64,000 bases of DNA from positions 1-64,000 of the forward strand of contig NZ_JAUNXI010000012.1 of assembly GCF_030539875.1 (NCBI RefSeq), read 5' to 3'. A program made the position numbers and the translations under genes. Position 1 is the first letter of the stretch, and each line of letters starts with the position of its first letter. Positions 2,848 through 2,939 of the stretch are shown here, piece after piece. Source of the DNA: Methanobrevibacter sp. Its GTDB lineage: Archaea > Methanobacteriota > Methanobacteria > Methanobacteriales > Methanobacteriaceae. Below the pieces are notes generated by a model. It saw only the letters and a list, made by a program, of their open reading frames with translations, did not search any database and was not told the origin of the DNA.

Positions 2848-2939
2848 GTAATTAATTACTAATGACAAATAATTATTTATGGAACAACAATATATAAACT
2901 TTTTGATTTTTTTAGTAATTAATTATTAATGACAAATAA
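2848..2939 (-). promoter_or_regulatory. Promoter of the hsdS-hsdM unit with flanking 25-bp direct repeats
   Basis: Two 25-bp direct repeats, at 2848-2872 and 2915-2939, differ at a single base. Both begin GTAATTAATTA and end TAATGACAAATAA. Between them, at about 2889-2900, is an AT-rich TATA-like element (TTTATATATTG on the minus strand), placed to start a transcript near 2865-2870 for the 214-aa gene that begins at 2803. One repeat therefore covers the expected start site and the other lies just upstream of the TATA/BRE side. This is a typical geometry for archaeal operators, inferred from sequence only. Confidence 0.5.

Follow-up and report, generated by a model that had tools for sequence, protein, structure and literature searches.

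Gene organization and repeated dyads at the locus

The stretch of DNA analyzed here (the window, 64 kb) is part of a genome designated G000; other genomes compared are given G-numbers and the loci fetched from them L-numbers. The window begins at a contig edge, just past the end of hsdM. The genes of a type I restriction-modification locus lie on the minus strand in the order hsdR (5665–2942, 907 aa), an intergenic region, a 214-aa gene (2803–2159), a gene for a short specificity subunit of 184 aa (half-HsdS, 2159–1605) and hsdM (1604–60), which encodes the type I methyltransferase subunit of 514 aa. The intergenic region between hsdR and the 214-aa gene contains two direct repeats of 25 nt (2848–2872 and 2915–2939, minus strand), which are 24/25 identical and lie 67 nt apart from start to start, in agreement with the initial annotation. 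The conserved core within the repeats is not the entire 25-mer, but an imperfect palindrome of 19 bp, GTMATTARTNAYTAATKAC, with the consensus dyad GTMATTA-N5-TAATKAC. Read along the coding strand, the upstream dyad GTCATTAATAATTAATTAC (2933–2915) ends 16 nt ahead of the TATA box TTTATATA (2898–2891, an 8/8 TATA match), and the downstream dyad GTCATTAGTAATTAATTAC (2866–2848) starts 32 nt past the start of the TATA box. Archaeal promoter rules place the start site approximately at the downstream dyad, which would then lie over the first bases of the transcript; transcription is expected to start at about position 2867. The geometry thereby bears out the placement proposed earlier, with one site upstream of the TATA element and one over the expected start, the start position itself being deduced.

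When the 400 nt preceding the 214-aa gene were searched in an unsupervised way for two dyads resembling each other, exactly these two sites were returned, with a score that was not reached in any of 200 shuffles (p 0.005, z 4.7). The operator pattern occurs twice in the window and in none of 100 shuffles, a comparison that is partly circular because the pattern was derived from the sites themselves. In the G000 assembly (1.82 Mb, 40 contigs) no further copy of the 25-bp repeat was found at up to 3 mismatches, and the possibility of a common dispersed element, raised with the initial annotation, was rejected on this basis. The degenerate 19-bp dyad likewise had no further match in the assembly at fewer than 2 mismatches; among loose matches, a reversed control pattern gave more hits per strand than the real dyad pattern (70 and 35, respectively). 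The 5′ side of hsdR showed no match to the operator at up to 3 mismatches.

At E 0.001, the product of the 214-aa gene has no hit among the Pfam, NCBIfam or PADLOC families, including those with a helix-turn-helix (HTH). Its homologue in G015 has a sub-threshold match to DUF7018, and its AlphaFold model (pLDDT 42) was left unused. The half-HsdS protein contains one Methylase_S domain (PF01420, at 7.2e-14 in Pfam), the recognition domain of type I HsdS proteins, in a chain of 184 aa that has one such domain and not the two per chain of a type I HsdS. The predicted structure (pLDDT 88.6) consists of this single recognition domain and a C-terminal helix of 40 residues. With one recognition domain and one long helix, two copies of half-HsdS can pair and could read a palindrome. 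A Foldseek search with the model retrieved HsdS structures and, as the best match, Esub1, which we take to be an orphan streptococcal S-type subunit. The matched Esub1 chains (PDB 8vsq, 8vsr; 184–196 residues) are likewise short, and the titles of these entries give binding by Prx. No HTH family was found for half-HsdS at E 0.001 in Pfam, NCBIfam or the best 25 of 60 PADLOC families. Neither half-HsdS nor the 214-aa protein is thus a small HTH protein of the C-protein type, and the palindromic sites at the promoter of the encoding operon, as known for C proteins, are present.

Conservation of the dyad pair and its spacing to the TATA box

The same dyad pair and TATA geometry were found in G000, G001, G015, G044, G098, and G075. 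In G015 and G001 the two dyads, their TATA box and the spacing are retained amid flanking sequences that have drifted. When 137 genomes of the family were scanned with the pattern, 37 had a match within 2 mismatches; the zero-mismatch places (7, in 5 genomes) were all located upstream of half-HsdS genes of the window type. The related locus in G072 contains four dyads; that in G075 has dyads before half-HsdS and another pair in front of an SseB-domain gene. Among the 17 loci whose HsdM reaches 60% identity or more by nearest match, 16 have two or more dyads, the sole exception being L131, where none were found.

The gene that constantly neighbors the dyads, upstream of hsdM, is the one for half-HsdS. 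A downstream hsdM-like match on the same strand as half-HsdS was observed in 30/30 loci (L013–L042), although in L039, L040, and L042 it starts approximately 600 nt on, inside a distant HsdM. Of the half-HsdS loci in named genomes (n = 20), 19 belong to Methanobrevibacter or Methanosphaera and one to a genome named only as "archaeon."

Spacing was tabulated for 20 loci, comprising only loci in which dyads had already been found and with operators listed by hand. The distance from the start of the TATA box to the downstream dyad is 30–34 nt in 17 of these loci, and 16, 36, and 42 nt in the others. In the six window-type loci, 16 nt separate the end of the upstream dyad from the TATA box, compared with 3–7 nt in the remaining 14 loci, a shift of roughly one turn of the DNA; the TATA box itself is an 8/8 match in 16 of the 20. 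In L133 (G071), operator and spacer are repeated in tandem upstream of half-HsdS with a period of 62 nt. Single dyads, at the thresholds used, on contig C1 of G075 and contig C63 of G072 were set aside.

Dyad pairs at other half-HsdS promoters and covariation

Reading of the sites by half-HsdS predicts that different recognition domains go with different dyads, and this holds for many half-HsdS genes. Divergent half-HsdS genes carry, at the same promoter position, GTCTTT-N7-AAAGAC, GTCCTA..TATGAC, GTCTTAG-N5-CTAAGAC, GTCATA-N6-TATGAC or TGTCCTA..TAGGACA. The operator of G002 differs from that of G001, and the half-HsdS of G002 is 33% identical to that of the window. Three genomes (G124, G115, and G123) have two half-HsdS loci each, with different dyads, which points to readers encoded by the loci. 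The half-sites GTCCTA and GTCATA recur alongside rather different half-HsdS proteins, which counts against reading by half-HsdS, as does a comparable dyad pair in front of a stress-protein gene in G135.

For a survey of half-HsdS promoters, a locus was required to encode a half-HsdS of 140–260 aa with an hsdM match no more than 2500 nt downstream; 43 of 47 loci were kept (L134, L139, L140, and L148 were dropped). Promoters were searched for two similar dyads 45–85 nt apart within 400 nt, and scores were compared with 200 shuffles (floor p 0.005). The region before the cargo gene was used for the window, L089 and L091, and the start was set by hand for L126; control promoters (n = 100) were drawn from the fetched loci. 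Dyad pairs at the floor value were found in 17/43 half-HsdS promoters versus 2/100 other promoters (Fisher p 1e-8), one of the two control hits falling on the second operator pair of G075 and the other on a simple tandem repeat. At p ≤ 0.05 the counts were 22/43 and 12/100, a background above the nominal level, and therefore only strong hits carry weight. In the remaining 21 half-HsdS promoters, the 400 nt searched contained no pair reaching p 0.05; four of these loci (L091, L093, L128, and L138) have dyads farther upstream. No convincing dyad pair was detected in the half-HsdS lineage at approximately 30% identity or in the g9 lineage. The former lineage includes a second half-HsdS of G000 (L125, contig C17:25661–26191), present in many genomes of the genus and located beside a distant HsdM. 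The dyad pair detected in the L125 promoter, at p 0.010, is not placed around a clear TATA box, and other tested members of the lineage gave none.

We further compared operator similarity with protein similarity in 22 loci, again limited to loci with dyads found and operators listed by hand. This set includes L091, L133, and L145, which are not among the loci tabulated for spacing, and lacks L123, which is. The HsdM sequences were assembled from tblastn pieces; that of L126 holds runs of N, and that of L142 is too long (836 aa), so that its HsdM identities are unreliable. The partial rank correlation of operator similarity was 0.25 with half-HsdS given HsdM (p 0.008) and 0.21 with HsdM given half-HsdS (p 0.072). 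For the 16 closest loci the corresponding values were 0.14 (p 0.089) versus 0.19 (p 0.037), and for 7-base half-sites in 20 loci 0.41 versus 0.22. Half-HsdS and HsdM diverge in parallel, and the covariation statistics do not separate one from the other as the partner of the operators. A natural swap in G009, in which an HsdM of 95% identity is combined with a different half-HsdS, was weakened as an argument because this identity covers 38 residues only; over the 178 residues recovered, HsdM identity is approximately 81%.

Candidate readers of the dyads and relation to known controllers

Judged from sequence, half-HsdS, alone or with HsdM, probably binds both sites and represses its own operon. 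The repeats would then be operators through which a type I restriction-modification locus regulates itself, read by the half-HsdS whose gene directly precedes hsdM in that operon. With both operators filled, one at the start site and one on the TATA/BRE side, access of TBP, TFB or RNA polymerase to the promoter would be blocked, and half-HsdS, HsdM and HsdS subunits (and cargo genes) would be held at a set level; hsdR, upstream of the operators, would be under a promoter of its own. Binding by half-HsdS, by itself or in complex with HsdM, is suggested because it is a product of the locus built to read sequence, its position is constant, its domain is variable, and two copies fit a palindrome. 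Repression rather than activation is the expected outcome because one site covers the start. According to a review on type I enzymes, S and M do not bind DNA individually, and HsdM may therefore be needed (PMC3874165). More generally, we lean toward the view that HsdS proteins with a single domain constitute a family of dedicated regulators of transcription, in which a methylation-directing domain would have been turned into a self-binding operon controller, each lineage with a matched pair of domain and operator at fixed positions around the archaeal TATA box.

The same complex could act on the promoter as an enzyme, with HsdM and half-HsdS methylating the dyads and methylation, not occupancy, setting transcription. 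Dimers of half-HsdS give active methyltransferases that recognize palindromes, both in M.AhdI and in engineered enzymes (PMC2878638, PMC6158711), and a recent review lists AhdI and CfrBI as controlled by promoter methylation (PMC12707154). Type I enzymes methylate an adenine in the 5′ half of the top strand (PMC3874165), whereas GTCTTT-N7-AAAGAC would offer no top-strand adenine in this half, and the spacing between symmetric adenines, as deduced from the operators, varies by lineage. Methylation as such also needs no strict spacing to the TATA box, and we regard this explanation as unlikely, if worth keeping in mind. Dyads of 18–20 bp are typical for HTH dimers, and an ArsR-type gene adjoins the operators in G072, which would fit binding by a conventional transcription factor encoded elsewhere. 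However, several genomes contain two loci with different dyads, so that one transcription factor per locus would be needed. In addition, gene maps judged by eye, in which only the G072 neighbor was identified by Pfam, revealed no HTH-type gene common to the loci, and the G000 dyad has no perfect match outside the promoter of the half-HsdS operon; a factor of this kind is rather improbable.

The initial annotation had favored the 214-aa protein as the controller, and its gene is indeed the first one after the operators in the window and in G015. In G001, however, it is a remnant with a stop codon, in G044 and G098 it is missing between the operators and half-HsdS, and its place is taken by an unrelated 273-aa gene in G002 and an unrelated SseB-domain gene in G072. 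The operators are intact in all these loci, which makes a controlling role very improbable and marks the gene as dispensable cargo of the operon. Half-HsdS would on sequence grounds be the better candidate binder; of the earlier interpretation, the part on operator-like sites on either side of the modification operon's TATA box stands, extended by their conservation in related loci, and the proposed binder does not. The repeats could alternatively serve as sites for the integrase that shuffles hsdS, or lead to promoter loss by recombination between them, as such loci include an integrase and direct repeats can recombine. This is disfavored and has very little probability: G001 and G002 have different dyads although their integrases share 75% identity, the positions of the dyads are fixed relative to the TATA box, and contig C8 of G000 breaks within an hsdS repeat, at its edge, and not at the operators.

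A phase-variable type I set (hsdM, more than one hsdS and a tyrosine recombinase) is present in G001 and G002, in which several full-length HsdS genes are located after hsdM. The integrase of G000 lies on contig C8:1–1281 (L161, L164) and shares 94% identity with the integrase of the G001 locus. A search of G000 with the G001 hsdS found only half-HsdS, so that hsdS cassettes, if present, must lie in an assembly gap; those of the G000 system are probably located between contigs C12 and C8.

Control by half-HsdS would resemble type II C proteins (PMC12707154) and the type I HsdC of Mycoplasma gallisepticum (PMC9681074), which are likewise locus-encoded autoregulators with operators at their own promoter. 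The type II C proteins are described there as HTH proteins (PMC12707154), whereas the candidate is a specificity subunit without an HTH match, at an archaeal promoter. RptR is likewise a first-gene repressor in a type I island, but it is a bacterial 9-kDa helical protein that binds 6-bp TAGCTA palindromes (NAR 2025, gkaf645); the dyads described here are 17–20 bp and have other sequences. M.AhdI and engineered half-HsdS proteins share one recognition domain per chain and a dimer on a palindrome, but are methyltransferase specificity subunits, with no promoter role described in the excerpts of these papers (PMC2878638, PMC6158711). In one of them, half-HsdS dimers are compared with BmrR-like repressors in an evolutionary argument, the nearest published idea that we found (PMC6158711). 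Restriction-modification controllers described in the sources consulted comprise HTH C proteins, M. gallisepticum HsdC, RptR, methyltransferase-HTH fusions, antisense transcripts and promoter methylation, and the 2025 review describes type I transcriptional control as little known (PMC12707154). No report of an HsdS-type protein binding its own promoter was found among open-licence papers, judged by title and the start of the abstract.

If true, half-HsdS control would be a new way to build a restriction-modification controller. A specificity subunit in this role would tie expression of the operon to the supply of HsdM and of the full-length, shuffling HsdS, because all could compete for the same partner. 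The loci would also provide natural pairs of recognition domain and target, and a repressor set for work in methanogens.

SseB-domain genes with the same operators are located in or beside the restriction locus at L093:5473–6661 (G075) and L091:5261–6441 (G072), as if these cargo genes had been put under the control of the restriction locus. In G135, where no close match to half-HsdS was found, a TATA-like box is surrounded by two similar dyads at a distance of 66 nt (L097:5367–5450); the gene that follows was named by eye as universal-stress-type.
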